Positions 2,523-20,723 of a stretch of 23,431 nt of DNA are shown here, one piece after another. The stretch is from a virus. Under the pieces are notes generated by a model. It was not told the origin of the DNA. It ran no database searches and saw only the letters and a program-made list of their open reading frames with translations. How positions within the stretch are numbered: position 1 is the first letter of the stretch; every line of letters starts with the position of its first letter. The DNA lies in IMG/VR virus record IMGVR_UViG_3300043413_000122, positions 1 to 23,431 of that record, one strand, 5' to 3'. The position numbers and the translations under genes were made by a program.

Positions 2523-2600
2523 ATGGGGGTCTCGGATCCGTTAAATGGATGAAATCGGTGCATAAGATACCTCATCTTGCCGTGATAGGGTGCTCTGATG

Positions 2601-2683
2601 TGTTGAACTGCGGGGAAAATGAACAGATTCATGTAGCCCGCCGCCGAAAATGAAAAAGAGTTACGGGAAAAATGAGAAACTAC
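2601..2683. repeat. Putative prophage end with three transposase-binding-like repeats
   Basis: Three related boxes are visible: GGGGAAAATGAAC (2612-2624), GCCGAAAATGAAA (2643-2655) and CGGGAAAAATGAGAAA (2664-2679). Their ATGA cores are 31 and 22 bp apart. A TGTTGAAC sequence at 2601 would fit the TG terminus of Mu-type phages, with the first box starting about 10 bp inside, as in Mu ends. If correct, TGATG (2596-2600) is the candidate 5-bp target duplication. TG at 2599 or 2596 are alternative ends. Confidence 0.55.
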
Positions 2684-2735
2684 CAGCCCAGTAGTTTATC
2701 AAACTTGATGGCACCGCAATCACTGAATTTGATAA

Positions 2736-2751: not shown

Positions 2752-2976
2752 TTAAACCTCTATCTCATAGGTCGGTAAATCCGGCGCATCTCCGGCCAGC
2801 TCCCCTCCCCTGTAAAACGCCTTCTTGCCGATGGCTACCCCGGTACCCCGTACTGTGACCGTCCCACCCGCCAACGAACTGAGAGTGGTCGTTGTGGTAC
2901 CTACTGTGGTCACGGTACCAACCAGCAAGGGATCCGCGCCGGGTACCAGCTCCAGGAATCGCTTAAACAGATTCAT
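2752..2976 (-). CDS. Small phage protein at the end of the tail operon
   Basis: A 74 aa protein beginning MNLFKRFLELVPGADPLLVG. Its ATG overlaps the stop codon of the hub-like gene (ATGA at 2973-2976), which decides the start over a longer in-frame extension. The body is Thr/Val/Gly-rich (TVTTVGTTTTTLSSL...) with an RGT and a YRGGELAGDAPDLP segment. Small proteins of this shape commonly close the tail module of D3112/B3-like phages; the function is unknown, and a small beta-barrel attached to the tail tip is an inference. It is the last phage gene before the prophage end. Confidence 0.75.
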   Translation of the reverse strand: MNLFKRFLELVPGADPLLVGTVTTVGTTTTTLSSLAGGTVTVRGTGVAIGKKAFYRGGELAGDAPDLPTYEIEV

Positions 2977-4922
2977 ACAAATCGCTCCACAGTAAGCTGC
3001 TGACGTACCGTCATGGCCCTGTTCTGCAACGCAGCAGAGACCCTGACGCCCCGGTTGTAACCCTTCCAACCATCCACTGCGAGCAATGCGCCCGGCAGGA
3101 TCAGCCCGGTATCAGCAGACAACGGCAGCTCGATGGTCTGAGTGCGCCTGGGCATGGTCTTGGCCAGCCCCACCACACCTTGGGCACGGGCTGCCGTCAC
3201 ATCACATACCAGCGGGTGGGTAATAGTCGGCGCTTGCTGTTCGCCAGCCGTCCCCTGGCGCACCACCCGCGCACTGATGCCCTGATGGCCTCCAGTCACC
3301 CAGATCCCGTTGGCTGCATGACCCGGCTGAAAGTCACTGCCCAGGGTGGTAATGATGGCGCGGGGGATCGCCACATCGACCACCGCAGTATCGAGCTGCC
3401 ATGGCACAGTGGGATAACGTGGCTTGATGACCAGATGGCGGTTGCTCTGGTGTGGCAGCACAAAACCACCGGCCGCCTCGGCCAGATACTTGACCACCTC
3501 GATCGGGGTCTGGTTATCCAGGCTAAAGAACCAGGCAGGCACCAACCAGTCAGCCGCTTGCCAATCCAACGTCCAACCAACAGGCAATACGGCCGCAGCC
3601 AGCTGGGCCATGGTCGCAGCAGCACGCTCACTCACCGCCTGCGCCAATACATGGGTCGGCGACAAGTAAGCGGTGCGAGAGCGTCCCGTCAGCGTTGCCG
3701 ACTCGCGGCCAAAGCTCTGGCTAGATTGCCAACCATCGCACATGCAGTCCCATTGCTGACCGTTGATATGAATGCTGACCTCTTCCTCATCGGTCAACGC
3801 AGCCGCCGCGATACGGGGGATCTGGGCACTGAACTGCCACGCCCAGGAGTCGGTATCGAGCTCGATACTCACCGCAGTAGCTGGGATATCGAGTCCATCG
3901 CGTACCCGCACGATCTTAGCTGTATTGCTCACCAGATAAACCCTCCGGGTTGGAATGACGATTGCCGCATCACTGCCCTGCCAGACAAGCTCCAGCTCTG
4001 CCGTGTCGCGCTTACGCCCGAACGCCAAGCGCAGCACCCGCTTATCTGGGCGGATGGGTGGCTTGGGTGGTTCTGGCGGCTGCGTCTTGCCCCAGGTGGG
4101 CGTGATGGCCTCATCCCAGCCATCACGCCAGCCCTCTATCAGCAGCTTGCCGTGGTGCCAGGCTTGAGCGGCAACCCCTTTACCGATGGGGATACCCTCT
4201 CGCCACTGGTCAGCCTGCCAAACCTTGTCAAAGCGCGGCGGGTTGGTGAACCCGACCAGGCGCCAGCTGCCAACCGGCGCAGCCTCAATCCACAGGGACT
4301 GATTCGCCACATGGCCAGCGGCCAGGCTGTCATAGCCCTGGCGGTTCTGCTGACTGACCGGCAGCCCCTCGGCAAAGCACTGTTGATTGGCCATAAACGT
4401 CTGGAGCATCTGCTCGCCCAGCTCAGCCACCTGCTGCCGATGCGCATCTGCCTGTTGCCACAGGGAGCGGCTGGTTGCCCGCTCGGTGCCTGCCTTCTGC
4501 CATTCGCTACTGAGGGGCTGGGATTGGCTATCAGCCCGATCCCAAGCATCCCCCATTGCACTGGCAGGGCCCCGGAATACGTTCTGGTCATACTCCCCGG
4601 CGACCACCGGCACCGGGGCGCGGGATGTGCTGGCCATGGCGCACTCAATGACGAACGCACCGACCAGTTCCCCCCGGCTATGGGTATGGCTGCTCAGCCA
4701 CCCCGGCAACACCACCGAACCGCCCAGCTGAGCACGGGTGCGATGCGGGGCGCCAGCCAATATCGATGCCAGCACCAGACCCGGTGACGCACTCAGGCTC
4801 GGCGGCAAGTTGGTACTATTCAGGATGCCGACCAGGCGCACCACTTTGGACTGGTTCAGCTCCAGCTGGCCATTGATGCTGCGGGCCTTACGCAGCTCTA
4901 GGCTGGCATCCTTTCTGGCCAT
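2973..4922 (-). CDS. Phage tail hub-like protein
   Basis: A 649 aa late protein. It divides into an N-terminal part (about 1-280) and a C-terminal part (about 295-649) separated by a proline-rich linker (QPPEPPKPPIRP, about 281-292). The C-terminal part carries a segment near residues 357-430 (DSWAWQFSAQIP..., then GRSRTAYLSP) of the type seen in baseplate/tail-hub proteins of Mu-like siphophages. From this I infer a hub or tail-tip role. Residues 120-180 contain many Gln/Ala and could be helical. The start follows the 134 aa gene by 12 nt with a G-rich but non-canonical ribosome site. It overlaps the 74 aa gene by ATGA. No peptidase or lysozyme motif was recognised. Confidence 0.7.
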   Translation of the reverse strand: MARKDASLELRKARSINGQLELNQSKVVRLVGILNSTNLPPSLSASPGLVLASILAGAPHRTRAQLGGSVVLPGWLSSHTHSRGELVGAFVIECAMASTSRAPVPVVAGEYDQNVFRGPASAMGDAWDRADSQSQPLSSEWQKAGTERATSRSLWQQADAHRQQVAELGEQMLQTFMANQQCFAEGLPVSQQNRQGYDSLAAGHVANQSLWIEAAPVGSWRLVGFTNPPRFDKVWQADQWREGIPIGKGVAAQAWHHGKLLIEGWRDGWDEAITPTWGKTQPPEPPKPPIRPDKRVLRLAFGRKRDTAELELVWQGSDAAIVIPTRRVYLVSNTAKIVRVRDGLDIPATAVSIELDTDSWAWQFSAQIPRIAAAALTDEEEVSIHINGQQWDCMCDGWQSSQSFGRESATLTGRSRTAYLSPTHVLAQAVSERAAATMAQLAAAVLPVGWTLDWQAADWLVPAWFFSLDNQTPIEVVKYLAEAAGGFVLPHQSNRHLVIKPRYPTVPWQLDTAVVDVAIPRAIITTLGSDFQPGHAANGIWVTGGHQGISARVVRQGTAGEQQAPTITHPLVCDVTAARAQGVVGLAKTMPRRTQTIELPLSADTGLILPGALLAVDGWKGYNRGVRVSAALQNRAMTVRQQLTVERFV

Positions 4923-4934
4923 ATGGCCCCCCGG

Positions 4935-5339
4935 TTACGGTTCAGTGATGGTGGCGGTATTGATGCGGATCAGCGCACCGGCAAAAAACTTCGCTGCAGG
5001 CAGCTCCAGATCGGCGCCGCTGCCAGGCACCCCTACATCGAGATCCGCCACAAAGGCCCCGTCCCGGTCAACAATGCGCCCCCAGGTGGGGGCGCCGCTG
5101 CCAGTGGCCATCTGTTCGGCCAAGGGTTTCAAGGTCAGCACCCCACCAGCGATCGTCTTGGCGCAAGGGTGGCTGAACGTGAGCACCACCAGAGCCAGCT
5201 GGTCGGTGATGGCCGCCCCCGGCGCCGGTTTGGTACCGGTGTAGATGGTCAGCTTGGCACTGGCCCCGGTACCCGTATCAATGGCCGTGGCCAACAGCTG
5301 GGCGCGACTGGTGCGCAGCCCTTCGGCATAGGAGATCAT
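4935..5339 (-). CDS. Phage structural protein of unknown function (134 aa)
   Basis: Starts MISYAEGLRTSRAQLLATAI, behind a good AGAGGA Shine-Dalgarno 7 nt from the ATG and 2 nt after the stop of the upstream tail gene. The sequence alternates short beta-prone stretches with Gly/Ala/Thr turns (ATGSGAPTWGRIVDRDGA) and ends INTATITEP, which suggests a small beta-sandwich. Its position between a probable tail-tip protein and a hub-like protein suggests a tail component. No specific family was recognised. Confidence 0.7.
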   Translation of the reverse strand: MISYAEGLRTSRAQLLATAIDTGTGASAKLTIYTGTKPAPGAAITDQLALVVLTFSHPCAKTIAGGVLTLKPLAEQMATGSGAPTWGRIVDRDGAFVADLDVGVPGSGADLELPAAKFFAGALIRINTATITEP

Positions 5340-5341
5340 GG

Positions 5342-6922
5342 TTATTTCCTCTTGAGCGGGGCAATCATGGGGAACGGCGCAGGCGCCACACCACCGCCAA
5401 GCGGGTAGGGTTTCGGCGCCTGATAGTCGGCGGCCACCGCGTTATAGTCGGCGGGGCCATATGCTGGGTCATCCTGGGCGACCAGCATATAACGCTTGTT
5501 CAGCCACAGCAGATCGAACCGATAGACCCCATCCGATGCGCGGCTGTAGGTCTCGCCAACCAGCTCGCCATCCTGGGTGAAGCAGAGCACCCGGCGCCGC
5601 ACTCCCATCCCGCTGATGGTCACCGTGCTTTCAATAAACCCCTGCTCCACGTTGCGCCCCCCATCGCGGATCCAGAAATAGTCCCGCCCCTTGCAGAGCG
5701 GATATTGGGTCTGTTGCTGGAGGTTGACCGGCCCCGCATACATCGGCAGGGCGCCACGCCATGCCACATCTTGTGGCTGGAATTGGCTACGCGACTCTTG
5801 GTTGGCTGCAACGGCGGTGATGGTATGGCGATATACCAGATAGGTGTACTCGGGCAGTAACGGGGTGAACTCGGTGCCTATGGTGGCCAGCGTCTGCCCA
5901 GGCTGTAGCTCTACCCAGATCCGGCTCTTTGGTGGGGCAATAAACTGCGATGAACGCACCACCACCTTGGTCTGGTAGTAACCGAACACCTGGCCATTGA
6001 TGGCCGCCAAGCCCAGATAGGGGGCATCGGTTGCTCCCTCGGTCATTACTCCCCCCACCTTCAACTTGGCCACGCCATTGAGGTAAGCCAGCTTGGCAAC
6101 CACGGCGCCAGCCGCATCAAACAGCACTCCAGTTTGGCCTGGCAAAATGTTTCGAGCCCAGGCGTAGGATGGCGCCGAGCCAGAAGCAACCAGCCCAACC
6201 CCAGGTTGATGGGCAATAGCGGCACCAGCTGGCAATACCAAATCAGGCTGCAAGGCGGTGTACTGCTCCGCTGTCAGTGCTGAAAAGTCGCCATTAAATT
6301 GAGTTGGGCTTTGCTGGATAATCACCCGCACATGAGCAACACCAGTCCCTGTATACGTTGACTGGGCACGGAGATTACTAAACCGCATGGCTGCAAATTT
6401 TTTCGGTTGGCAGGCAAAACTAAACGACTGGTTGCGGTTGCTCGCCGGGTCAGTGGTAAAGACTAAAGCGCTATCGGTGAAGCTCAAGGCACCAAAGGTG
6501 AGAGGGTATGCCCCTGACTGAGCAGCCTTCGTCAAGCTGTCCATGTTCTGGCCATACCAAATTCCATGGCGATAGGCTCCATCATAACGGGTGCGAATTG
6601 CTGCCAGTACCGTACCGGCACCATCCAGAAACTCCAAATCCATATCTGCATAATCTGGATTCCAGTTTCCGTTGCTTATTTCCAACCTGAAAACGTAGTT
6701 TCTGAGAGCCAAGAAAATCGTCTTGGTAGGGAGCACTCCCGTATCCCCCCCAACACCAGAGCCGTAGATAAACTTGAAAATCCCTATATCTACAGTCTCG
6801 CCAAAATTGGCATCCCAATCAGGCCCGTCCGAACTTTCAACGTTGTAAAAAGGGATATTTCCCGATCCAGACTGGGATTGCACAACCACTAAAAAGCCCC
6901 TGTTCGGTGAGAAGGTTGCCAT
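5342..6922 (-). CDS. Putative tail tip / receptor-binding protein (526 aa)
   Basis: A 526 aa protein starting MATFSPNRGFLVVVQSQSGS with a strong GGAGG ribosome site 5 nt from the ATG, 3 nt after the preceding gene. It is rich in aromatic and beta-prone residues and has no coiled coil, cleavage motif or collagen-like repeat. The first ~210 residues are encoded by DNA visibly poorer in GC than the rest of the gene, which suggests an exchanged module. Its position among the distal tail genes supports a host-recognition or tail-tip role by inference; the family was not recognised. Confidence 0.65.
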   Translation of the reverse strand: MATFSPNRGFLVVVQSQSGSGNIPFYNVESSDGPDWDANFGETVDIGIFKFIYGSGVGGDTGVLPTKTIFLALRNYVFRLEISNGNWNPDYADMDLEFLDGAGTVLAAIRTRYDGAYRHGIWYGQNMDSLTKAAQSGAYPLTFGALSFTDSALVFTTDPASNRNQSFSFACQPKKFAAMRFSNLRAQSTYTGTGVAHVRVIIQQSPTQFNGDFSALTAEQYTALQPDLVLPAGAAIAHQPGVGLVASGSAPSYAWARNILPGQTGVLFDAAGAVVAKLAYLNGVAKLKVGGVMTEGATDAPYLGLAAINGQVFGYYQTKVVVRSSQFIAPPKSRIWVELQPGQTLATIGTEFTPLLPEYTYLVYRHTITAVAANQESRSQFQPQDVAWRGALPMYAGPVNLQQQTQYPLCKGRDYFWIRDGGRNVEQGFIESTVTISGMGVRRRVLCFTQDGELVGETYSRASDGVYRFDLLWLNKRYMLVAQDDPAYGPADYNAVAADYQAPKPYPLGGGVAPAPFPMIAPLKRK

Positions 6923-6925
6923 GAC

Positions 6926-8122
6926 TTACCTCCATGGGCCGGTCAGATCAAACCCCATCAATACCTGGCCATTATTGTATGGATCCTCATGTGGCTGCAT
7001 GTTGATAAACCGAATCAACTTGCCAGGTAAGGCTGGCAAGTTATTGAAGTTTTTCCGATCCCAACCGACTACTGTGCCATACGGACACACGACACCAGGC
7101 AAATAACCACGTAAATGGTTGCCACTTTCCACCACCATGATCGGGTCTGTGCTTACATAAAAACCGTTGTCAGGGCCATTGGGTACGTTTAACCCTGAAC
7201 CGAATCGCCCGAACAACCCTTTTAACCACCAAGAGGTAGAGCCAAATAACTGGTGATATGGGCGAGCAATAGAGCGATGTGACGATACATCAAATACGCC
7301 GCCATTGTTGTAATACGCAAAGTATGAAGATGAGGCTACGTCCCAACGGCGTCCTGATTCATCTGCATTCGTTGTTGGGTAGTGAACGAGCAAGGCGTGA
7401 TAGCGATCCCCCGGCCTGACGCTTCGCATATAACCAAACAGGTAGAGCGCTTGGCGGTTATAGGCTCCGTAATAGGGTAGGAAATAAAACAACTGGGCAT
7501 CGCCTATCAGATCCCAACGGCCAGAAGAGTAGCGTTTGGTGGCGGGCCAACGGTGCTCGAAAATAGTGGTGTAGGTGTTGATATCCACCACATCCTCGAC
7601 CATCGCCACTTTGGCAAGGTAAGCGCGATAAGTTACCCCTGCCCACCCGCTGAATCCGGTGTTGTCGATACGCAGGCTGACATTCCCCGACTCGCTGACA
7701 TTGGAGGGGCGCACGATGATGGTCTTTCCATCCCCGCTTTCGTGGGTGATCGTCCAACCCAGCGGCGCCACCTTTATGGTCATGGCCGCGCCAGACCCCG
7801 ACGCCCCCGGATCCCCGGCATCCAGCTCAAACCAGACCTGAGTGGCCGTGACATGCATCACCCGATGCTCGCCGTTGTAGGCAACAGGGGATACCCCATC
7901 GACCTGGACAACTGAGTCTTGCAGATAGGCATGACCACCGGTAAAGGTCGCCACCGCCCACCCCTTGGCGACATCGAAAGCCAGCGCGTTGATGGTCAGG
8001 GTGCCAAAGCCGGTGACCAGCACCGCCTTGAGCAGCGCCGCCAGGGCGCCGTCTTTGTCATCCCCTAAGCTGGGTGCTCCCTGCATCTCGCTTGCGAACC
8101 ATTTGACCTTGTATTCAGCCAT
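6926..8122 (-). CDS. Putative tail tip / adhesion protein (398 aa)
   Basis: The start MAEYKVKWFASEMQGAPSLG at 8122 is preferred over the upstream in-frame ATG (8158), because GGAGAG sits about 8 nt ahead of it. The N-terminal ~200 residues are beta-rich (GTLTINALAFDVAKGWAVAT, later VSLRIDNTGFSGWAGVTYRA) and GC-rich, like a virion-attachment domain. The C-terminal half is Tyr/Gly/Asn-rich (FYFLPYYGAYNRQALYL-like stretches) and encoded by AT-richer DNA. That pattern, a conserved N-terminus and a mosaic C-terminus, is usual in receptor-binding proteins, but no named family was recognised. Confidence 0.65.
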   Translation of the reverse strand: MAEYKVKWFASEMQGAPSLGDDKDGALAALLKAVLVTGFGTLTINALAFDVAKGWAVATFTGGHAYLQDSVVQVDGVSPVAYNGEHRVMHVTATQVWFELDAGDPGASGSGAAMTIKVAPLGWTITHESGDGKTIIVRPSNVSESGNVSLRIDNTGFSGWAGVTYRAYLAKVAMVEDVVDINTYTTIFEHRWPATKRYSSGRWDLIGDAQLFYFLPYYGAYNRQALYLFGYMRSVRPGDRYHALLVHYPTTNADESGRRWDVASSSYFAYYNNGGVFDVSSHRSIARPYHQLFGSTSWWLKGLFGRFGSGLNVPNGPDNGFYVSTDPIMVVESGNHLRGYLPGVVCPYGTVVGWDRKNFNNLPALPGKLIRFINMQPHEDPYNNGQVLMGFDLTGPWR

Positions 8123-8161
8123 CGCTTTTCTCTCCACGGGCAAGGCGCAACGCCTCACCGG

Positions 8162-11100
8162 TTAACGGTTGACGTTGCCCCTGAGCTGGGCCTCGAAACG
8201 GTCGGTATCCACCGCTGCCACCGACTGCAAGATGGTGCGGATAAACCAGATCGGGTAATTGGCGGCGTAGGTGTTGAACCGCAGCACGTTACCCGCCGCC
8301 CAGCCTGCCCCCCAGCCGCGCCGGTCAAGCCTGAAATAGGGCTGGCCGTTGTTGGGGTTGATGGGGGCAAAGTCGGTATTCACGTCCCCCACCGCAATCT
8401 GGCCCACATGTTCCCCCACCAGAATAAACGTGGTGGTGGTCTGGAAGATGATGGCCCATCGCTCTTGCAAGGTGGCCCGGTTGCTCACCGCGATCGGGAA
8501 ATCCGTATCGTTGTATTCCGCCGTGCAGGGGTCGCCAATCAGAAAATCAGACCAGTTATTTGTCCAGGTGCGCTGGTCGAACAGCGACCCATAGCGGGCC
8601 CACAGGTCACCGATGATCAGGGCGCTGGAGACCAGGGTATCCGCCGCCTCATAGTTGTGACTGAGGGGCCGTGCCAGGGTGATGCGGCCCGAGATCTCCA
8701 CATCGGTGGCCAGGCTCATATCCTCGACCCGGTGAACCACGCTCAGCGGCTCCACATAGCCGGTCAGACTCAGCGGGCTGGCTAGGGTCACCATCCCGCT
8801 GTTCATGTTGACGCTGTAGAGCTGCGGCGCCAACTCCTTGCCGTTCTTATCCTCCACCCAGCAATAGGCCAACCGTTCGCGCCCGGTGTTGAGCTGTTGC
8901 CCGGCCTGCACTCCCATGGGGAAGGCAGTGCGCTTGGTGGAATGCACCACTACGATGTAACCCTTGCGAATGAAGGGCACCCGGCCATCGGATGGCAGGC
9001 GCACCGGATCCAGCTTGATGAGATCCGCATCAAGCGGCAGATAGCTATAGACCACCGCATTAAACCGGATGGTGTCAGCCACCACTGACAAGGGGCGCCA
9101 GATCTTGCCATCGACCACCCTATCCGGGTCGTACCAGGGTTTACCCTCGTTGCCCGCCGCCGTCACCAAGCGGCCAAAGCGCACCGATACCACCCCGGTC
9201 TGATAGTCCACCTTGCCGGTCACGTCAGTGCTGGTGATGGTGCCATCGCCGTTGGCGGTCACCTCGAACCGGCGCCCGTCTGCAGTGTTACCGCTTAGGT
9301 AGAGGCTGGATGGCGCAATGGGTGCCCCCGGCGTTCTGAATGTCACCTCGTCCACCGTCTGGGCCACCAGGCTGGTGACCAGCGAATTCAGGGCAGGCAC
9401 GGGCGCCGCGCCGGGGTTCCAGACCGTGACGGTCGCCTTGCCGGTGGCGTAATCCAGCGTCCCGGCCTGCTCACCGGCCCCGGTGGCGGGGTCAATGTTG
9501 CGATAGAGGATCCCTTGCCTGTCCACATAGACAGACCCGCCCAGGACAAAGCGCACTGAGTTGGCCAGGATCGCCTCGCCGTTGCGCGGGGTGATATCCA
9601 GCACCAGCGGGGTGGCTGTCACTGTGTCCTGGCCCGCTTGGCTTGCATTGTTGCTGCGGTACTCCACCTCGACCCAACCACTGTCGTCCACCGGGAACAG
9701 GTAAGCCGCCTGCACGTAGTAGATTTCAACCAACGTCCAGCGCTGGCGGGCTATGGTGTTGCCCTGACTATCGGTGTAGGTGCCGATGGTGCGCCACTCA
9801 TAGCGGGTTTTCGGAATGCCGCCCTGGCCATCCGGCTTGATGGTGATCTTGCCGGTGGTGTAGTTGACGCTGCCCCGCTCCACCCCCGCCGCATCCAGCA
9901 GCTTGCCCACACCGTTGTCGCGCACACTGATGATCGGGTCACGGGTAGCGATCACCAGTTCGGTGTCGTCCTTCACATCCTCATAAAGGGCATTCCAGCG
10001 CAATGAGACCATTCGGGGGGTCAGGTTCTGCTTGGCCAGCTGCAGGGTGATCGTCCCGTCCGGGTTGCGGGCTGGGTAGTCAAAGCGTTGGATGTCCGGG
10101 TCGCCATACTGGTAAACAACCTGGTACTCCTGGCCGCCATCCGGCAGGGTCGCCACCCGCAGGGCCAGATCGCCGGTCACATAATTGATGGTGCCGGAGG
10201 CATCGCCGGTCAGCTGGCCAGCCCCGTTGTCGATGGCGGTTTTAGTCGCGCCACCGGCTTGCCAGGTCAGGGTCAGGCTGTTGGGAGTGATCCCCTCATG
10301 GGCCAGCTTATGGGTCAGCTGCACCGGATCCAGCACCATGCTGGCGCGGTTGAGGTAAGAGACCTTGGTACCCCAGCTGAACATGATCGCGCTGTTCACA
10401 TCCGGCAGCGCCCCCAGAGTCAGCACCACAGAGCCGGTGGTGAAGTTGAGCAGGCCAGAGCCATAGGATTTGTCCTGGCCAAACAGCTCCCCGCGCCCGT
10501 TGTCTTTCAGGTCGTACCATTTGCCCTGGGCCAGATAGCTGACGGTCAGCGAACCGGGGCAAGGGGTAGGCAGCAGGGTCGCGGTGTAGGCATAGCCCCG
10601 ATTGTTGGCGGCGATCTGGATCTGGGCCGTATCAGCGATGCGCGATGGCATCACTGCCGGGCGAAAGCTCACGGTTTTGCTGGCCGCGCCGTAGTTCGGG
10701 CACTGGCTATTGAAGGTCAGCAGACCGCGCCCGTAGTCGATAGCCCCCACCACGGTACCAACCAGGAACAGCTCGCCGCCCTTATCGGTGATCACCGCCG
10801 CGCCGATGGTGACCGATACGCTGCCCGGCATGGCCCCAATCCCCAGGAACAGCCCCTGACTGGGGCTGACCGGTGAGGTGGTGGTGAAAGTGTGGGGACT
10901 GCCCACCCCGGATTCCAGCAGGGCGCCCAGCTCACCGGCAGCGGTCAAATCCACCACAGGGGTTTCACTGCGGGCACTGGGTACCAGCTGGGTGAAGATA
11001 GTCTTGGCCTGCACCCGCATTGCACCCAGCGCCGCATCCGCCACCAGCTTGGTGGTCGAAAAGTAGTTGGCTGCATCGGCCACCACGGTTTCCCGCAGGG

Positions 11101-11755
11101 TGGTCTTGGTGGTTGCCTGGTCATAGGGGCTGGGCTGCTCCCCTTCAAAGGTGTAGCGCAGCGGGTCAGTGATCACGCAAGTGACCACGTTGCGGGTGAA
11201 CTCGCCCTGGTAGCCCGCCACCCCGAACTTGCGCAGCTCGGCGGTTACCCGGTCAACCCGCACATACTGCTCAATCTCGTTCCCCTTCCCTTCGTTGCCG
11301 ACCAGTACCAACACCTCCCCGACCTCCGGCAACCGCACCTCTACCCGTTGCAGGATACGGATCGCCCGCTGCCCTTCCAGCTGGGTATCGTAGAGCACCC
11401 CTTGCCACTTCGGGCCTCGGGCCTGATAGCGCTCCAGGGTGTTGCGGGCGTTGCCTCTGGTATCGTTGTGGTCTTTGGTGGTCATCAGCGTCAGGTTGAC
11501 GCTGGGATCACTGGGCGGCAGCAGCACCATGGCGTTGGCGCCATAGTAGGTGTCGGTGCCGTCCGTCTGCACCGCCAGAAACGCCTTGCGCATATTCACG
11601 GTGCCATAGGCCCGATCCATATCGCTGACGTCAGGGAACAGGCTGTTATGGTTGCCGCTGATGATCTCGCGGCCAGTGATGCGACCGCCGCCGTCATCGG
11701 TATCAACCAGGCGCTGGCTGGCCAACAACACGATATCGCCAGAGAGAATGGTCAT
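8162..11755 (-). CDS. Giant repeat-containing phage tail protein (1197 aa)
   Basis: The start at 11755 (MTILSGDIVLLASQRLVDTD) is set by an ATGA overlap with the preceding gene; the frame stays open about 100 codons further upstream, but that is shadow of the 122 aa gene. Residues about 323-995 contain roughly seven copies of a loose repeat of the pattern DNGxGxLxG...GxxxYxTGxxxLxxxxLPD, clearest at 417-452, 509-540, 612-643 and 835-863. Such alternation suggests a string of small beta domains along the tail tip or a central fibre. The last ~200 residues are Trp/Asn-rich and unlike the repeats. Size and position directly after the distal-tail-like gene suggest a tail-tip or baseplate-like component; the exact role is unknown. 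Confidence 0.75.
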   Translation of the reverse strand: MTILSGDIVLLASQRLVDTDDGGGRITGREIISGNHNSLFPDVSDMDRAYGTVNMRKAFLAVQTDGTDTYYGANAMVLLPPSDPSVNLTLMTTKDHNDTRGNARNTLERYQARGPKWQGVLYDTQLEGQRAIRILQRVEVRLPEVGEVLVLVGNEGKGNEIEQYVRVDRVTAELRKFGVAGYQGEFTRNVVTCVITDPLRYTFEGEQPSPYDQATTKTTLRETVVADAANYFSTTKLVADAALGAMRVQAKTIFTQLVPSARSETPVVDLTAAGELGALLESGVGSPHTFTTTSPVSPSQGLFLGIGAMPGSVSVTIGAAVITDKGGELFLVGTVVGAIDYGRGLLTFNSQCPNYGAASKTVSFRPAVMPSRIADTAQIQIAANNRGYAYTATLLPTPCPGSLTVSYLAQGKWYDLKDNGRGELFGQDKSYGSGLLNFTTGSVVLTLGALPDVNSAIMFSWGTKVSYLNRASMVLDPVQLTHKLAHEGITPNSLTLTWQAGGATKTAIDNGAGQLTGDASGTINYVTGDLALRVATLPDGGQEYQVVYQYGDPDIQRFDYPARNPDGTITLQLAKQNLTPRMVSLRWNALYEDVKDDTELVIATRDPIISVRDNGVGKLLDAAGVERGSVNYTTGKITIKPDGQGGIPKTRYEWRTIGTYTDSQGNTIARQRWTLVEIYYVQAAYLFPVDDSGWVEVEYRSNNASQAGQDTVTATPLVLDITPRNGEAILANSVRFVLGGSVYVDRQGILYRNIDPATGAGEQAGTLDYATGKATVTVWNPGAAPVPALNSLVTSLVAQTVDEVTFRTPGAPIAPSSLYLSGNTADGRRFEVTANGDGTITSTDVTGKVDYQTGVVSVRFGRLVTAAGNEGKPWYDPDRVVDGKIWRPLSVVADTIRFNAVVYSYLPLDADLIKLDPVRLPSDGRVPFIRKGYIVVVHSTKRTAFPMGVQAGQQLNTGRERLAYCWVEDKNGKELAPQLYSVNMNSGMVTLASPLSLTGYVEPLSVVHRVEDMSLATDVEISGRITLARPLSHNYEAADTLVSSALIIGDLWARYGSLFDQRTWTNNWSDFLIGDPCTAEYNDTDFPIAVSNRATLQERWAIIFQTTTTFILVGEHVGQIAVGDVNTDFAPINPNNGQPYFRLDRRGWGAGWAAGNVLRFNTYAANYPIWFIRTILQSVAAVDTDRFEAQLRGNVNR

Positions 11756-12120
11756 GGGGTTACCTCTGTAAGATTCAGGGTCAAGGCATAGGGGTCGCCC
11801 CCTTCCGGGTCGGCCATCTCCACCAGTGGCGTGGCCACCACGCCAGGGCGGCGCCACACCACAGTGCGGGCCACGCCATCGAGCAGGGTCAACGTCATCA
11901 GCTGGGCCACCTGCACCTCCAGCGCCTTGAGCTCCTGCACCTTGGCGCGGGTGCAATGCCCGCTCAGAGTCAGCGGCCGCCCCTCGGGCTTGGCGGTCTC
12001 CTCCACCAACAGGGCGCCACTCAAGGTCGGGGTCACCACCTGCTCGACCGGTGCCCACTCGAACTCGTCGCGCCAGACCAGATCATCTGGCAGCAGCACG
12101 CTGTTTAAGGTCACGTTCAT
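11752..12120 (-). CDS. Distal-tail-like phage protein (122 aa)
   Basis: A 122 aa protein, start MNVTLNSVLLPDDLVWRDEF. It overlaps the tape measure stop (ATGA, 12117-12120) and the giant tail gene start (ATGA, 11752-11755), so all three are translationally coupled. The sequence has the WRDEFEW...LSGALLVEE...GRPLTLSG organisation and alternating beta strands seen in small tail proteins that follow the tape measure and fold like distal tail proteins. This assignment rests on position and general pattern rather than on a diagnostic motif. Confidence 0.7.
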   Translation of the reverse strand: MNVTLNSVLLPDDLVWRDEFEWAPVEQVVTPTLSGALLVEETAKPEGRPLTLSGHCTRAKVQELKALEVQVAQLMTLTLLDGVARTVVWRRPGVVATPLVEMADPEGGDPYALTLNLTEVTP

Positions 12121-14954
12121 TGGCGAAGTCCTTGCTGTTTAAGAAGTGAGATCAGGGCATTCGCATTGGCCTCATCGGCCTGCAGTTCGGCCGAGCCTCC
12201 CGCCCCTTTGAGCTCGATGGTGATCCGCTCGGACAAGGGCCTGCGTGTCCCTGGGGTGTTGGTGCTGGGGGTAGATGACTCTACAGCCGGAGCCGGTGGC
12301 TGAGCTGCGGCCTGGTTGGTTTTGGCACTATCCTTGGCCAACGCTTTGTTGAGCTCCTCTTTGAGGCGGGCCTGCATCGCCTCCATCTCTTTTTGGAACT
12401 TCTCACCGTAATACTTGCTCCACTCGCTGTAGGCCGGAATGTCTTTGACCTTCTGGCTGTAGCGAGCCAGCTCCTCTTCCACGCCGGCAAGCGTGTTGGC
12501 TAGACCATCGGCATTGCCGCGCAGACTGTTGATGTCCACGCTTTTGTAATAGAAAGACCCGGCATTGACGGTGCGGGTGTTGCCACTGCCGCCCCCTCCA
12601 CCACTGGATAGGCTGGTGTTGGTCTGCTCGGCCTCGTCCTGAACGCCCTTGAGCCCGGCCCGCATGGCATCGGTCGCCCCCTTGGCCCGCGCGGCGGCCT
12701 CGTCAAAACTATCGCCAATGGCCGCCACTGCCTTTTTGGCCTCCCCGCTGCCCCCTTTTACCTTGCTCATGGCGTCGCTTGCGATGGCCATGGAGCGAGC
12801 CAGCGCATCGCCGGTGATCTTGCCCTGGGCGGCCAGTTGCTTCTGACGCTCGATCACCGCATCGATCTCGGCGGTGGTCTTGGCGCTGTTGTAGGCAGCG
12901 GCCAGCGCCTCCTCGATGGCGGCACTACTGGCACCCGTGTGCGCCACCAATACATCCAGGGCGCCGATGGTCTTCTGAAAGCCCGCACCGATACGGCCAT
13001 TGGCCTGCTCAAAATCGAGGCCGAGCACCTTAAACGCTTCTGCCAGTTTGGCTGGGCCATCGGCGGCGGTTTGCTTGGCCACGGCATTGATCTCTGCCAG
13101 ATAATCACGGGTACTCTTGGCCTCATCCCCCAGTGCTTTAACTGCGGCGGCGCCTTGTCGCCAGCTGCCGGTGGCATCGTCGTAATGCACCTTCCCCTCG
13201 GCGACCAGGCGATCGAGATCCGCCATGCTGGTGATGGCAAAGCCGAGCTCGGCTGACAGGGCGGCAAACTGACCATTGAGGCGGGCCTGAGTCTCGGAGC
13301 GCAGTGCTTGCGCCTCCCGGAGCGCCAGCTCAGCCTGCACCAGCTGACGCAAGGCAGAGGCAAACTGGGTGATCTGGATGATGGACTCGACCGCCACGGC
13401 GGCCAGTAGCCCCTTGACGGCAGCGCCCAGCACCCTGACCCCGATGGCTGCACCGGCTGCTGCCGTGCCCGCTGTCGTCATACCGCCTGCTGCTGTCGCT
13501 GTCGCCACAGGCATGGCAATAAATTGGGCGTAGAGGCTGCGCAGATCACCCATCCAGCCCGCGATTTTCAGGCCGACCCAAGCCTGGGCCAACACGGTCA
13601 GCGCGGTGCGCCACTCATAGAGGGTCTGGATCAGCGACTTGAGGGTTTCCCCCATGGAGATAAAGCCATCGGAGAGGCGCTGAGCCCACTCCTGCAGGCG
13701 GCCATCCCTGGCCATCGCCTCAAATTCTGCATTAAGGCTGGCCAGCTGGTTTTTGAGCCAGGCCAGCGCCCCGTTCTCGGCCACCATCCGGTAAAACTTG
13801 GCGAGGTTGTCCTGGGCATTGGATATAAGCCCGGAGAGCAGACTCATGTTGTTGGCAGCTGCACCGCGCGATTGGGCAGCAATCTCGTTCATCAGGGCAG
13901 AGATGGTCTCGCGGCCCAGCTTGCCTGCCTCAGAGAGCTTCTGCAGTTCGGCGGTGTTCTTGCCGGTCACCTGCTCCAACATCTGCCAGACCGGCATGCC
14001 CCGCTCAATCAGCTGCAGGATCTCCTCACCCTGCAGCTTCTGCTTGGCCCAGGCTTGGCCAAGGGCCAGGGAGATGCCCTGCACCTCTTCAAAACCGCCG
14101 CCCAACTTGAACGCTTGATCGACAATGCCCTGCATGGCCCCCGCCATGGGGTCGATGCCGAACGCCTTGAGGCGCACGAACACCTGGGTGACTTCACTGA
14201 GCTGCAGGGGGGTGTTCTTGGCAAAGTCCTGGATCCAGGCTGACGCCTCTTTGCCACCGGCAATCGATCCCATCACTGCCTTGAGCTGCACATCGAGGCG
14301 CTCGGCCTGATCGCCTGTCTGGAACATTGCCATCAGTTGGGTGGTGAAGGTCTGGATACCGAACCAGGTACCCGCCAGCGCCACCAGCCGCCCGGTCAAG
14401 CTACCGATAGCCCCTTGCAAGCCACCGGCCTGCTGACTGCCCTGACCTAATCCGCGTCCCAGCCGTTCGGTCTGGGCGACACTCTTGGTCAGCTCACGCT
14501 GCAGGCGCTGCTGCTCCTGGGCAAGGTTCCTGGTATCGAGCCCGGACTGCTTGAGTCCTGCGTGCAAGCGAGTATGACTGGCGGACTGAGCGACTAACTG
14601 GCGCTCCAGCTGCTTGACCTCGGAGGCCAGCAAGCGCTCTTGTTCGGACAGCGCCTTGGCATCGCCGCTGCCCGCTTGTTGCTCACGGCGCAACTGCTCC
14701 AGCTTGTCACGGCTAAGCACCGTCGCCAGTTCGAGCTGGGTCAGGGCGGCTTTTGAGTCATTGAACTGCTGGATCAGCGCCTGCTGGCGACTTAGCGATT
14801 CGAGGGTTTCAGCCAGTTGCGCCGTTTCGGCGGCCGTCTCGTCCGAGATAGGGCCCAGTTCCTGCACCTCACCCGCCAAGGCGGCCAGGTCTTCCCGGCC
14901 GGTGACCTTGGCCGCCAGCTCCAGGGCTAGTTTGAGGGTGCTAGAGGTGGACAT
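12117..14954 (-). CDS. Tail tape measure protein
   Basis: A 945 aa protein that sets tail length and is packed inside the tube. Seen: a long Gln/Glu/Leu-rich heptad region (about 40-165) that should be coiled coil; a tape-measure domain at about 190-375 (QAERLDVQLKAVMGS, EVTQVFVRLKAFGIDP, GEEILQLIERGMPVWQML); an Ala/Gly-rich hydrophobic region near 480-530 that may be membrane-seeking; and more helical sequence to the C-terminus. The start has AGGA 7 nt upstream. It has its own late-promoter-like element, and the tail tube gene that would normally lie close upstream is 2.8 kb away across inserted cargo. Confidence 0.92.
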   Translation of the reverse strand: MSTSSTLKLALELAAKVTGREDLAALAGEVQELGPISDETAAETAQLAETLESLSRQQALIQQFNDSKAALTQLELATVLSRDKLEQLRREQQAGSGDAKALSEQERLLASEVKQLERQLVAQSASHTRLHAGLKQSGLDTRNLAQEQQRLQRELTKSVAQTERLGRGLGQGSQQAGGLQGAIGSLTGRLVALAGTWFGIQTFTTQLMAMFQTGDQAERLDVQLKAVMGSIAGGKEASAWIQDFAKNTPLQLSEVTQVFVRLKAFGIDPMAGAMQGIVDQAFKLGGGFEEVQGISLALGQAWAKQKLQGEEILQLIERGMPVWQMLEQVTGKNTAELQKLSEAGKLGRETISALMNEIAAQSRGAAANNMSLLSGLISNAQDNLAKFYRMVAENGALAWLKNQLASLNAEFEAMARDGRLQEWAQRLSDGFISMGETLKSLIQTLYEWRTALTVLAQAWVGLKIAGWMGDLRSLYAQFIAMPVATATAAGGMTTAGTAAAGAAIGVRVLGAAVKGLLAAVAVESIIQITQFASALRQLVQAELALREAQALRSETQARLNGQFAALSAELGFAITSMADLDRLVAEGKVHYDDATGSWRQGAAAVKALGDEAKSTRDYLAEINAVAKQTAADGPAKLAEAFKVLGLDFEQANGRIGAGFQKTIGALDVLVAHTGASSAAIEEALAAAYNSAKTTAEIDAVIERQKQLAAQGKITGDALARSMAIASDAMSKVKGGSGEAKKAVAAIGDSFDEAAARAKGATDAMRAGLKGVQDEAEQTNTSLSSGGGGGSGNTRTVNAGSFYYKSVDINSLRGNADGLANTLAGVEEELARYSQKVKDIPAYSEWSKYYGEKFQKEMEAMQARLKEELNKALAKDSAKTNQAAAQPPAPAVESSTPSTNTPGTRRPLSERITIELKGAGGSAELQADEANANALISLLKQQGLRQ

Positions 14955-15143: not shown

Positions 15144-15536
15144 GTGAAAAAAAGAGCAAAACTTAAGAAATATTCAGAGCTTTTTAATCGACACATCGAG
15201 AGTTACCTCTCTCCAGGAATATCGATCCAAACTGTTATCCATCCAGTAGAACAAGAGGGCGCAGTTTTTGAATTTCACCTAAATAAAAATGGAGTTTCGG
15301 GAGAGCGCTTCGACAAGCCTAGAAGCTCAATTGGCGAAGTTCTTTCTGACATTCCACAGAGAATGATAGGTGGCAACCTTGAACAAGTTCACTTTAGTGG
15401 TACGAATCTCTACCTTGAAGGAAATAGAGTCATTGTTATCAAGGGAGAAGATGACAAGAACTCATGGAGCGGAAACGCTGTAATCCAAGATGTTGAGCGA
15501 GTGGTTTCCACATCAATGGGGGGCAAGAGTTCATGA
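15144..15536 (+). CDS. Unknown protein, first gene of the three-gene cargo operon
   Basis: A 130 aa soluble protein (GTG start, AGGA 7 nt upstream) beginning MKKRAKLKKYSELFNRHIES. Lys-rich N-terminus; the remainder alternates short strands and turns (AVFEFHLNKNG, LYLEGNRVIVIKGED). No signal peptide, membrane segment or known catalytic motif was recognised. Its DNA is much more AT-rich than the phage genes on either side and it is transcribed against them, so it was acquired separately. Its stop overlaps the next start as ATGA, so it is translationally coupled to the membrane protein and presumably acts with it. Confidence 0.75.
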   Translation: MKKRAKLKKYSELFNRHIESYLSPGISIQTVIHPVEQEGAVFEFHLNKNGVSGERFDKPRSSIGEVLSDIPQRMIGGNLEQVHFSGTNLYLEGNRVIVIKGEDDKNSWSGNAVIQDVERVVSTSMGGKSS

Positions 15537-15967
15537 GTGGCAAGCCACAACTGCCGATTGACCAGATTAAACAGTTGGCTGCAGACATCCGAGAAATAAA
15601 TAACTATGCTGCAAACCACGGTTTCGACGCAGGTTTATTTCATGCACAAGTTAATCCAAGCTCACCATCAAAGAGCTGGGTACTCGACTGGACATTGATA
15701 ACTTTAGTAGGATTTTCATTTTTATTTATTATTCTTCTATCTGTGCTGGCATTTTATGAACCAATTTCTTCAAAAGCCTCTAATTTCTTATTTGTCTCCG
15801 GCATGCTTTTAGTTGTTGGTATTTCTACAGCGGCGCATAAGAAATTCGATAACCAAACAATAACTGGCATTATATGTATAGGATTGCTCGGTGTATTACT
15901 TGTTGGCTCTGGTGTTTTTACACCACGGGAAGCTGTTGAACAATTAAAAGAGATGAAAAATGAATAG
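15533..15967 (+). CDS. Three-helix membrane protein, second gene of the cargo operon
   Basis: A 144 aa protein with a ~50 residue soluble N-terminus (QIKQLAADIREINNYAANHG looks helical) and three hydrophobic segments at about 52-74, 82-101 and 109-129, followed by a short charged tail. No signal peptidase site. The start overlaps the first gene by ATGA, and its stop overlaps the HNH gene start by 8 nt, so all three products should be made in fixed proportion. A membrane-anchored sensor, toxin or channel partner for the downstream nuclease is a reasonable inference; no family was recognised. Confidence 0.78.
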   Translation: MSGKPQLPIDQIKQLAADIREINNYAANHGFDAGLFHAQVNPSSPSKSWVLDWTLITLVGFSFLFIILLSVLAFYEPISSKASNFLFVSGMLLVVGISTAAHKKFDNQTITGIICIGLLGVLLVGSGVFTPREAVEQLKEMKNE

Positions 15968-16730
15968 AGAACCACCGAAAGACGTCAAGAAGACTCTGCG
16001 CGAAGAAGTTGGGTTTGGCTGCCCTGTTCCAAACTGTGGTCGACCATACTTAGAGTGGCATCACTTCGATCCTCCCTGGCGTGAAAAAAACCATCATAAC
16101 CCGAAAGGTATGATTGCTCTATGCAGAGAACATCATATACAAGCAGACCATGGTGCTTTCACTCCGGCACAACTGCATGAATTCAAACGTGCAGGTAAAG
16201 AAAACTGGAAACAGATTAGCGGTAAATTTAACTGGATGAGAAACCGTATATTAGCTGTCGTCGGAGGTAATTTTTACTACGAGACTCCAATTATCTTCAT
16301 GTTCAGGGAACAACCTATAATCTGGTTTGAAAGAGACGAAAACAATTACCTGCTACTAAATGTTCACATGTTGTCAACAAGCAGATTACCAAGAGCCTAC
16401 ATTACGAACAATGAGTGGTTCAATGTTGGCAATGAGGAAGATATTGAATGTCCTCCCTCGGCAAAAAGAGTAAAAATTAGTTATCCAAACGGGGATATGG
16501 TGTCTATTGAATTTTTCGAAATAAATACCATTGAAGATGCTAAGAAGCGTTATCCAAAAGCCAGAGTTGGCGACTGGCGTATAGAACTCCCAGTTACTGC
16601 TGTAGAAGTTACAAACATCGTTGCAAATTCAGGCCTTGAGTTTAATGCAAATGAAACCAAATTTGGAATTGGAAATGTAATGAGGAATTGTTTTTTATCA
16701 CATTGTGGTGCTGGTTTTGCAATTAGCTAA
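15960..16730 (+). CDS. HNH-nuclease domain fused to an unknown C-terminal domain, third gene of the cargo operon
   Basis: A 256 aa protein. Residues about 14-80 form an HNH/zinc-finger nuclease module: C21-(X4)-C26, then WHH (33-35) followed by DPPW, N47, then LC55-x2-HH (58-59) and AD near 62-63. These supply the metal-binding and catalytic His/Asn/His set of the HNH superfamily. Residues about 90-250 form a separate domain with alternating aromatic strands (IIWFERDENNYLLLNVHML, VSIEFFEINTIEDAKKRYPK) that was not recognised. The gene is AT-rich, overlaps the membrane-protein gene by 8 nt and ends before a strong terminator. A nuclease effector in phage defence or superinfection exclusion is inferred, not shown. 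Confidence 0.82.
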   Translation: MNREPPKDVKKTLREEVGFGCPVPNCGRPYLEWHHFDPPWREKNHHNPKGMIALCREHHIQADHGAFTPAQLHEFKRAGKENWKQISGKFNWMRNRILAVVGGNFYYETPIIFMFREQPIIWFERDENNYLLLNVHMLSTSRLPRAYITNNEWFNVGNEEDIECPPSAKRVKISYPNGDMVSIEFFEINTIEDAKKRYPKARVGDWRIELPVTAVEVTNIVANSGLEFNANETKFGIGNVMRNCFLSHCGAGFAIS

Positions 16731-16799
16731 CCCCATTCATTGCAATCCCATCAATACAATAAAACCTAATTTGAATTCCAATTTATTTAAAATATTTAT

Positions 16800-16824
16800 A
16801 ACGGCGGGTCTCCCCGCCGTTTTC
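16800..16824. terminator. Terminator A, bidirectional: 3' end of the cargo operon and of the tail-tube remnant
   Basis: A 9-bp perfect stem (AACGGCGGG with CCCGCCGTT) and TCTC loop, followed on the plus strand by TTTTC. It is a near copy of the terminator at 17777-17797, and both lie just beyond tail-tube 3' sequence on the minus strand. Confidence 0.8.
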
Positions 16825-16983
16825 ATTCCCCTGTAACATCAGTCACCGGCCGATCCACGTAGAAGGGGCGGTCTCGCCATCCACAACCAGCAGCTCGAAC
16901 TCGATGAGCTTGTCGCTCAGGAAATCCAGCGCCTTCTTGGGGGACAAGTTGGCACGGGGCAAAGTCAGTTTGAACTCTCCAAA
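16823..16983 (-). pseudogene. Truncated, frameshifted copy of the tail tube 3' end
   Basis: Minus-strand translation gives LTLPRANLSPKKALDFLSDK, closely matching the tail tube C-terminus encoded at 17811-17970 (LTVPRASLAPKKAVDFLSDK). Compared with the intact gene it has a 12-nt in-frame deletion and a 1-nt deletion in the G run near 16864-16867, which destroys the last codons (APFYVDRPV becomes APSTWIGR-stop). Nothing upstream of this segment is present. By eye the two copies agree at over 80% of positions, so they have diverged and are not a very recent duplication. Confidence 0.85.
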
Positions 16984-17000
16984 ACTGACGACACAATGAC

Positions 17001-17029
17001 CTGTCATTTCTGACAGTGGCAAGTTTGCC
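17001..17029. promoter_or_regulatory. Palindromes upstream of the 97 aa gene; possible operator
   Basis: CTGTCATTTCTGACAG (17001-17016) has perfect 6-bp arms around TTTC. It is followed at once by GGCAAGTTTGCC (17018-17029), with 5-bp arms. A TTGCCT (17025-17030) and a TTTAAT-like hexamer 18 nt further on could be a weak promoter for the 97 aa gene, which would place the palindromes over its -35 region. Confidence 0.3.
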
Positions 17030-17066
17030 TAGGGAATCAATACTCAGATTTAATTGAGCAGAGGGT

Positions 17067-17360
17067 ATGGAAGGAATGTATCAATTTGGCGTCTGGCATG
17101 AAGGTGGGCATCAGACTGTCCATGGACTGCCGATTTTGAAACATCTGCTGCAATCCCTTAAGGGAGAAGTGATGGTGCGCTACATTTGTCGTGCGGACAC
17201 GCCATGCACCCTGTTTCTGACCATCAAGGATGGCGTGCCATACCAGAAGTTCAAGGAAGGCACTCCGCCGCTGGATTGGCAATGGTTAGAGAACTCCATC
17301 CTCCCCCTTTCTGCCTCATCTCAGCCACTGGCCATGATTAAGCGGCTGGCATTGCGCTAA
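17067..17360 (+). CDS. Unknown 97 aa protein between the two cargo slots
   Basis: Starts MEGMYQFGVWHEGGHQTVHG; AGAGGG lies close ahead of the first ATG, and GGAAGGA runs into the second Met (M4), so either could be used. No membrane segment. Contains an RYICRADTPCTLFLTIKDG stretch with two cysteines six residues apart. GC content is intermediate between the AT-rich cargo and the phage genes. It lies on the plus strand opposite to the tail genes. The minus-strand alternative over the same DNA has no ribosome site and looks less coding. No family was recognised; it could be another moron. Confidence 0.5.
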   Translation: MEGMYQFGVWHEGGHQTVHGLPILKHLLQSLKGEVMVRYICRADTPCTLFLTIKDGVPYQKFKEGTPPLDWQWLENSILPLSASSQPLAMIKRLALR

Positions 17361-17423
17361 AAACAAGCTCCACCCGCCAACACCACCAGTACCTCCCTAC
17401 AGGTAATCTTGACCACTATGGCA

Positions 17424-17491
17424 TTCTGATCAGAATCAGATATGCCCCATGGTAAAGGGATGGCAAGATATCGGGGCTTATGACGAATTTC
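17424..17491 (-). promoter_or_regulatory. Diverged second copy of the tape-measure upstream region, with late-promoter-like element
   Basis: By eye about three quarters of positions from 17421 to about 17495 match 14958-15033 (shared GCATTC, TCAGATAT, CCCCATG, TAAAGGG, CGAATT/TGAATT blocks). It retains TTAT-GACGAA-TTTC (17478-17491), 23 nt from a TACCAT -10-like hexamer (plus-strand 17449-17454), but the tape-measure start codon is replaced by ATAGTG. Any minus transcript would run antisense through the 97 aa gene. Confidence 0.55.
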
Positions 17492-17518
17492 AGATGCATT
17501 TCACAAGAGGATTTTGAG

Positions 17519-19814: not shown

Positions 19815-20723
19815 TTACAGATAGTCAGCCACCACCAGCTTCAGCTTGCCCTTGAGCTCGTTGCTGCTGCTATCAGAGAGCTCCCGCTCCAGCATCCGGG
19901 TTGCCAGCTTCTCAAGGGAAGGCGGTACAACCAGCAGGGTGGGTTTCACACCAAGCTTGCGGCCGCCATCCGCCTGAAACTCCCGCATCCTGGAGAAGGC
20001 ATCCCACAGGTTGTCGGGGGTGAGCGCCCGCTTGTTGGCAAACGCCAGCTGCCAGAAACCAAAGCCAGCGGCATCGCGGCAGTCCACCCCGTAGCGGAAC
20101 TCCTTGCGAGTGAACACGGCTTCATCATCGATCTTGGTCATGGCGATAAGCTGCGGCGCCTTGCGCTCCTGGAAGATGATGGGCTTGAGGGCGCGGCTGG
20201 TATCGAGCAGGAACCAGGGCTCACCGGCATAGGCGCCATCCACCACCAGGTTGGCGCTCATTACCGGGGTACCGGTGCCATCGGCTTTGGGATAGACGGG
20301 GTGATCGGTGTCGAAGAAATACTGAGCGTCGTAGCATGGCGTGGTGAAGCCAGCCCCGAGCAGGCCGAAGCAGAGCTCGTCGGGATGTACCCCTGCCGCC
20401 AGACCCATCTCCTGAAACAGGGGGGCATAGATACCCAGCTCGTCATCCTCGATATCGTTGCGATCCACCCCCACGGTGGCCTCGAAGTCTTCGTTGACGA
20501 TTTGGTAACCGTGCGCCTTCATTGACTCGATCACCCGATCCCCGACCCACTTGCGCAGACTGGGAAACTTGCCGAGCCAGCCATAGGTATTGGATTTGGT
20601 GGTCGATTTGATGACGGTCGCGATCTCGGTGTATTGGGTCGGCGCCTCCCCCTTTGCGTCTTCAAAGTTCTTCTTGAAGCCGGTGAAGAGGGACTGCAGC
20701 AACGCAGTTGTAATGATGGCCAT
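19815..20723 (-). CDS. Major capsid protein (Mu gpT type)
   Basis: A 302 aa protein, close to the ~305 aa of Mu gpT, starting MAIITTALLQSLFTGFKKNF. It forms the icosahedral head. Typical features: TTKSNTYGWLGKFPSLRKWV, the VGVDRNDIEDDELGIY segment and a FDTDHPVYP segment, all recognisable Mu-type capsid blocks. AAGGA lies 8 nt from the ATG. It follows the protease/scaffold gene after an 80-nt gap holding a large hairpin. Confidence 0.92.
   Translation of the reverse strand: MAIITTALLQSLFTGFKKNFEDAKGEAPTQYTEIATVIKSTTKSNTYGWLGKFPSLRKWVGDRVIESMKAHGYQIVNEDFEATVGVDRNDIEDDELGIYAPLFQEMGLAAGVHPDELCFGLLGAGFTTPCYDAQYFFDTDHPVYPKADGTGTPVMSANLVVDGAYAGEPWFLLDTSRALKPIIFQERKAPQLIAMTKIDDEAVFTRKEFRYGVDCRDAAGFGFWQLAFANKRALTPDNLWDAFSRMREFQADGGRKLGVKPTLLVVPPSLEKLATRMLERELSDSSSNELKGKLKLVVADYL

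Follow-up and report, generated by a model that had tools for sequence, protein, structure and literature searches.

The fabV locus and the phage junction

The window, meaning the whole stretch of DNA analysed here, is a virus record of 23,431 bases. It is a fragment without the left end and early genes of its own prophage copy, and its first 2.6 kb are Aeromonas chromosome carrying an intact fabV (Table 1). Searching GenBank phage DNA with the window as query gave no match.

Table 1. Features of the host–phage boundary and of the phage region within the window
Feature	Position	Strand	Basis
fabV, host enoyl-ACP reductase, intact, 397 aa	1329..2522	−	ORF; 98 % identity with fabV of A. popoffii
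Conserved core of the fabV leader, AACACATCAGAGCACC; zero point for insertion distances	2589..2604	−	At most 1 mismatch in 37/37 Aeromonas genomes
Host box GCGGGGAAAATGAACAGA (box 1 of the sequence-only reading), resembling the phage R2 box in the same orientation	2610..2627	+	Kept in uninterrupted A. popoffii; outscores all 304,078 background windows
Predicted target-site duplication of 5 bp (fabV strand: TGAAT)	2627..2631		First 5 host bases at the junction; second copy outside the record
Prophage right end, terminus TGTAGCCCGCC	2632..2690		Comparison with uninterrupted leader; same end in other genomes
Phage R1 end box (box 2)	2641..2658	+	Common to 28 distinct right ends, with variation
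Phage R2 end box (box 3)	2663..2680	+	Right-end collection and box matrix
Tail and tape-measure genes, reading toward fabV	2752..14954	−	ORFs
Tail protein	2973..4922	−	Present in 12/37 Aeromonas genomes
Tape measure, TMP_3	12117..14954	−	Domain match
Mu-like major head subunit gpT	19815..20723	−	Pfam PF10124, E 1e-124

Comparison with the uninterrupted fabV leader of A. popoffii (L002) locates the junction. Over 2520–2631 the two sequences agree at 111 of 112 bases, and over the next 60 bases at only 18. Since the host match stops at 2631, the phage starts at 2632 (TGTAGCCC... / TGTAGCCCGCCGCC); the end sequence TGTAGCCCGCCGC... adjoins different, unrelated host DNA in other genomes. By this comparison the window carries the right end of a Mu-like prophage beside Aeromonas fabV. 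An earlier sequence-only reading had proposed a transposable-phage end in the fabV upstream region, which the junction bears out. It had placed the terminus at about 2590–2601, about 80 bp from the fabV ATG, with a TGATG duplication; host DNA runs on to 2631, the measured distance is 109 bp and the duplication predicted here is TGAAT. It had also taken uninterrupted strains that keep 2601–2690 as evidence against a phage end: A. popoffii keeps 2520–2631 and not 2632–2690.

Exact copies of GAAAATGA lie at 2615 and 2646, and a third box at 2668, AAAAATGA, has one mismatch; the spacings are 31 and 22 bp. Matches with at most one mismatch number 24 across the window against 13.5 expected, a count reached in 2 of 100 shuffles. 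As host DNA extends to 2631, the box at 2615 belongs to the host, and it is kept in uninterrupted A. popoffii, leaving the other two as phage-owned boxes R1 and R2. All three had been credited to the phage; the 22-bp spacing of two of them stands, the third being a near rather than an exact copy.

An end-box matrix derived from 22 distinct R1/R2 boxes was scored on 30 fabV leaders, uninterrupted ones included. In 23 of the 30 leaders the top-scoring position is 23 bp upstream of the core, oriented as the R boxes of the phage are, and in two more it is at 24 bp; many species thus have a leader that looks like a phage end box. In four genomes the leader box outscores all 304,078 background windows, other leaders score poorly, and scores are mildly higher in occupied genomes (7 vs 23 genomes, p = 0.08). 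No leader-type end box was found at the other target loci described below. The leader core has a single exact match per genome and is likewise absent near those loci.

A Mu-like phage family

A complete relative in A. veronii (G003) is 38.5 kb long, with CCATT on each side. The early genes of this copy code for a repressor of the S24 type, a small HTH protein at the place of Ner (PHROG matches only), a Mu-family transposase (MuA) with HTH_Tnp_Mu_1, rve and Mu-transpos_C domains and, side by side with the transposase, an AAA ATPase (MuB) matching AAA_22, TniB and PHROG 296 (‘DNA transposition protein’). The early region is completed by a PHROG 2030 protein, another HTH protein, GemA and Mor. 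GemA and Mor in this relative, and gpT in the window, are Mu-type genes.

The TG/CA termini and 5-bp duplication expected by the sequence-only reading are present in relatives of the window phage. Five further copies have an identical 5-bp duplication at both ends, namely GTTCA (G005), CCTGA (G001), CGAGA (G034), GGTGC (G037) and GTATT (G059), and both ends match with TG...CA in these five as well as in G003. At the fabV site itself, duplications at both ends are CCATT (G003) and GTTCA (G005). One more duplication, CTTCG, is split across two contigs of one metagenome. With these genes and ends, the window phage is, at the level of sequence, a Mu-type transposable prophage. E. coli phage Mu likewise has a transposase, a MuB-type ATPase, Mor, GemA, gpT, a 5-bp duplication and TG/CA ends. 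The ATPase of the window-phage family has 240 aa, and MuB of Mu is longer, at 312 aa.

Three records (G068, L113/L200; G071, L139/L201; G060, L140/L204) have their two ends, left and right, at separate positions within one target locus, with host bases missing in two and duplicated in one; deletion, duplication, recombination between two copies or misassembly could each produce this. Some copies also carry probable cargo. An opposite-strand cluster within the tail region of the window (15144–17752) has no convincing Pfam or PADLOC match. In the G003 early region, part of a reverse-strand cargo gene in the GemA–Mor interval (L129, 18525–19001) matches PADLOC BnzB (E 9e-22); this BnzB-like gene, possible anti-phage defence cargo, occurs only in G003 and G071 of the 12 compared.

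Recurrent insertion upstream of fabV

A right-end pattern, whose reversed control gave zero matches, was searched in 37 Aeromonas genomes and identified 19 right ends in 12 of them. Eight of the 19 lie at most 300 bp upstream of the fabV leader, where uniform insertion predicts 0.0013, and chance insertion was rejected on this comparison. The eight are in G003, G004, G005, G006, G027, G034, G036 and G001, the last at an old leader beside gpmB; the ends in G006 and G027 are degenerate. Further ends at the fabV site occur in the window, in two virus records (L085/L133 and L113/L132) and in G002, whose more degenerate end has too many mismatches for the pattern that defined the 19.

Distances from junction to core in 12 cases, G002 included, are 27, 27, 172, 18, 83, 4, 27, −4, 28, 28, 14 and 29 bp, where −4 is read from a broken core and 29 is measured to the old leader at the gpmB locus. 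Ten of the 12 junctions thus fall between −4 and 29 bp of the core, within 33 bp, while exact positions and species differ; at the fabV-site junctions measured, at least 77 bp remain before the ATG of fabV, which the sequence-only reading had suggested might come under phage-end control. A right end in G032, at 511 bp from the ATG (L147), lies outside both the eight and the 12. The right end faces fabV in 14 of 14 cases, two left-end cases (L261, L278) being counted, and no left end faces fabV in any of 30 leader loci.

As sequences and positions differ between species, most of these insertions are separate events; a few of the fabV-site insertions may share common descent. A preference of the phage family for the fabV site is well supported by these sequence comparisons. 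Phage Mu inserts nearly at random and is the textbook random inserter. Near-random target choice, usual rather than defining for Mu-like phages, is not seen among the established prophages here. The recurrent, oriented target, and the identity of box 1 as a host element resembling a phage end box, were both absent from the sequence-only reading.

A stray leader copy in A. popoffii (L158) was considered as an independent target and rejected: it is the old gpmB–fabV locus, from which fabV has been lost, and is therefore counted as a fabV site. In this genome (G001; L158/L175, L002/L229) fabV is gone from the gpmB side, where the phage right end and a decayed leader remain, and now adjoins a gene judged MCP-like by eye from its translation; the phage may have had a part in this rearrangement. 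Outside Aeromonas, the fabV leader of Edwardsiella hoshinae (L029, 4904–4924) keeps most of the core, and a weak right-end-like sequence (at most 3 mismatches) stands directly before it.

Other target loci

Right flanks from 21 ends were compared all against all, left flanks being added later and genes named from translations. Six flanks (L135, L136, L138, L142, L144, L155) fall in ssrA attachment regions, the tmRNA gene being confirmed in L135 only; L138 and L142 probably record one event. Four (L139, L140, L146, L152) fall in a gene for an AEC-type permease, where L140 was placed because it matches left flanks from this gene. Two (L149, L156) fall at an alcohol dehydrogenase gene that neighbours udp, either within the gene or beside it. 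L137, L143, L145 and L159 are singletons, and L134 lies near the AEC locus. Within each shared non-fabV locus the orientation is constant. In the AEC gene the junctions are scattered across some 700 bp, and several other copies lie inside genes. Copies away from fabV are often found where the fabV site is occupied (G001, G005, G006, G027, G034), with G011, G015 and G037 as exceptions. None of 18 other right flanks contains a sequence resembling the fabV core that scores above its own shuffles, whereas the fabV controls do. In L143 (G011) the right end lies directly beside sequence resembling a small phage tail-end gene; one prophage has probably inserted into another.

The PHROG 2030 gene and the target

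The PHROG 2030 gene sits directly after MuB. Across 12 prophages compared with G003, MuB is 98–100 % identical, MuA 86–99 %, the gene after PHROG 2030 78–99 %, and PHROG 2030 itself 43 to 100 %. Scanning virus records with MuB returned 54 loci; the 39 that reached 80 % identity were kept, and a target was assigned only where the left flank was present. Among 18 phages with a known target, a small sample, pairs sharing a target are 19.9 percentage points more alike in PHROG 2030 (z = 5.5, permutation p = 0.0005), labels being permuted as if the phages were independent. The same test, for which some genes were present in only 12–16 of the 18, gave p = 0.09 for MuA, 0.40 for MuB, 0.37 for the following gene, 0.54 for DUF3164, 0.49 for GemA, 0.89 for Mor and 0.14 for Ner; the repressor shows a weak correlation (p = 0.03). 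L279, a likely duplicate of G005 with an identical PHROG 2030 protein and the same junction, was left out of this set, and L289 and L291 were left out of the PHROG 2030 alignment.

By type, PHROG 2030 Ib is found in the AEC gene in 4 of 4 cases (p = 0.0016) and type II at fabV in 4 of 5 (p = 0.022). Three phages are exceptions to this pattern: G003, of type I, and L278, of type III, have inserted at fabV, and L272, of type II, elsewhere. Nearest neighbours by PHROG 2030 share a target in 6 of 11 cases only. The exceptions could be prophages whose early genes were replaced once integrated, or phages that found the fabV site taken and went elsewhere.

An AlphaFold model of the PHROG 2030 protein (mean pLDDT 77, pTM 0.47) shows two domains resembling winged helices plus a small, conserved C-terminal portion, their relative placement being uncertain. 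Foldseek searches with the model returned generic matches only, mostly winged helices, and Pfam matches are weak. No Pfam match to the TniQ/TnsD family was found in 10 early proteins of G003 or in four PHROG 2030 proteins. The G003 phage was also searched for a copy of the fabV leader; its best local match, 13, lies within the shuffle range of 11–15.

Relatives in Shewanella

In 129 Shewanella genomes, 15 relatives of MuB were found at 52 % identity or more, 14 of them with host flank. Half of these (7 of 14) share a host locus with another phage, at differing exact positions: three beside a tRNA-like repeat region and a GGDEF-like gene, two beside a proX-like gene and two at dsbA (names from translations). 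Two Shewanella phages are 99 % identical in MuB and only 51 % in their PHROG 2030 homologues. Phages at the same locus share the gene type but are also close kin, so the Shewanella set supports site preference more than it supports a selector.

Interpretation

The reading we favour, to which we give about even odds (roughly 0.5), is that of a Mu-type family which prefers a few loci, above all a 33-bp stretch upstream of the fabV leader, and is steered there by the PHROG 2030 protein as a putative target selector. This small DNA-binding protein would bind the target locus and capture MuB there; MuB would then recruit the complex of MuA and phage ends, and strand transfer would follow at a short distance on one side of the target. 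Such protein-directed homing would resemble that by TnsD of Tn7, with wide transposition presumably kept in lytic growth, as in phage Mu. Slightly short of even, in our estimate, is the wider proposition of a Mu-like subgroup with a modular selector (PHROG 2030 beside MuB) that would steer lysogenic integration to a small number of safe loci and be swapped between phages to change the address. Such a selector would be a counterpart of TnsD that arose without TniQ, and fabV would be its main Aeromonas address.

A separate selector would be unnecessary if the transposase itself were drawn to the fabV leader by the end-like box, which has the same orientation. The R2-like box, placed 23 bp ahead of the core in most leaders (23 of 30) and stronger in four genomes than every background window, is consistent with this, as are junctions that fall at or inside the leader box. 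However, occupied genomes score only mildly higher, some leaders score poorly, the other target loci lack the box and, by the extrapolated background rate, boxes equal to the weaker leaders occur many times per genome; we regard attraction by the box as unlikely. Still somewhat less probable is a hotspot set by the host, whether through DNA structure or through a protein at the fabV promoter (of nucleoid or regulatory type), as REP/BIME sequences are for Ab30 and 2P1. The fabV leader core is conserved across the genus, and such hotspots exist in P. aeruginosa phages, yet the published Ab30 hotspot is without orientation bias in the accessible part of its source (PMC5977238), against 14 of 14 here. 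A host feature also leaves the tracking of the target by one phage gene unexplained, and no sequence common to the fabV core and the other target loci was found.

Recurrence might instead arise after random insertion, through selection for harmless sites and a replication-friendly orientation. The fabV junctions do spare the conserved leader, and an orientation bias of prophages along the direction of replication is generally known. Thousands of intergenic regions would be equally harmless, though, and 8 of 19 ends are at fabV; a clustering of 10 of 12 junctions in 33 bp is tighter than such selection would give, and several other copies lie inside genes, all of which makes this explanation improbable. 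The view of the sequence-only reading, that of a chance Mu-type insertion important through altered fabV expression, we hold to be very improbable. Late phage genes do point toward fabV, and a promoter and terminator scan of the fabV leader found none, with no terminator-like site within 2480–2800; against it, the recurrence excludes chance and the conserved leader is intact. With the leader left intact, the fabV site probably serves the phage as a safe harbour, not as a means of controlling fabV.

The favoured reading, a family steered by the PHROG 2030 protein, has its closest mechanistic parallel in Tn7 (TnsC with TnsD/TniQ), where an ATPase works with a separate, swappable DNA-binding protein, an arrangement predicted from sequence for the phages. 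Oriented insertion at a short distance, beside a conserved gene that is left intact, is also shared. The phages differ from Tn7 in having no TniQ/TnsD match, junctions spread over tens of base pairs and many copies elsewhere; site use by Tn7 is tighter than insertion at the fabV site. In the accessible part of Faure 2023 a conserved gene in one operon with MuB is described for the Mu clade, with no function given; it may or may not be PHROG 2030 (PMC10293859).

The Mu-like siphovirus vB_SspS_MuM16-1 of Shewanella (MZ568827) has the same early order of repressor, Ner, transposase, ATPase, HTH protein and second HTH protein. Its first HTH protein is 31 % identical to the PHROG 2030 query over 86 % of the query, and its left end likewise begins TGTAACCGACC. 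The accessible text on MuM16-1 infers random integration sites from variable host ends and reports no target preference (PMC8541194). The nearest published case found is that of Ab30-type hotspots, as presented in the accessible part of PMC5977238. Ab30 and 2P1, transposable phages of P. aeruginosa (D3112 group), likewise have hotspots beside a conserved sequence: 14 major hotspots align 55–61 bp from a 35-bp REP-like consensus, and 42 repeated REP/BIME-linked sites take about 5 % of the lytic insertions of Ab30/2P1 (PMC5977238). In contrast, the present family uses few loci, is seen as established prophages in fixed orientation, and has a phage gene that tracks the locus. In the accessible portion of the open-licence literature, no report of a fabV hotspot or of a target selector in a Mu-like phage was found.

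The insertion in the window is not a chance event: it joins many others in the same orientation at a preferred site, and a phage protein probably directs them. If this is true, a family with preferred and oriented addresses, in which one small gene follows the address, would connect Mu with Tn7-type targeting. It would explain the repeated finding of prophages at one gene, and would provide a simple module that directs a Mu-type transposase.
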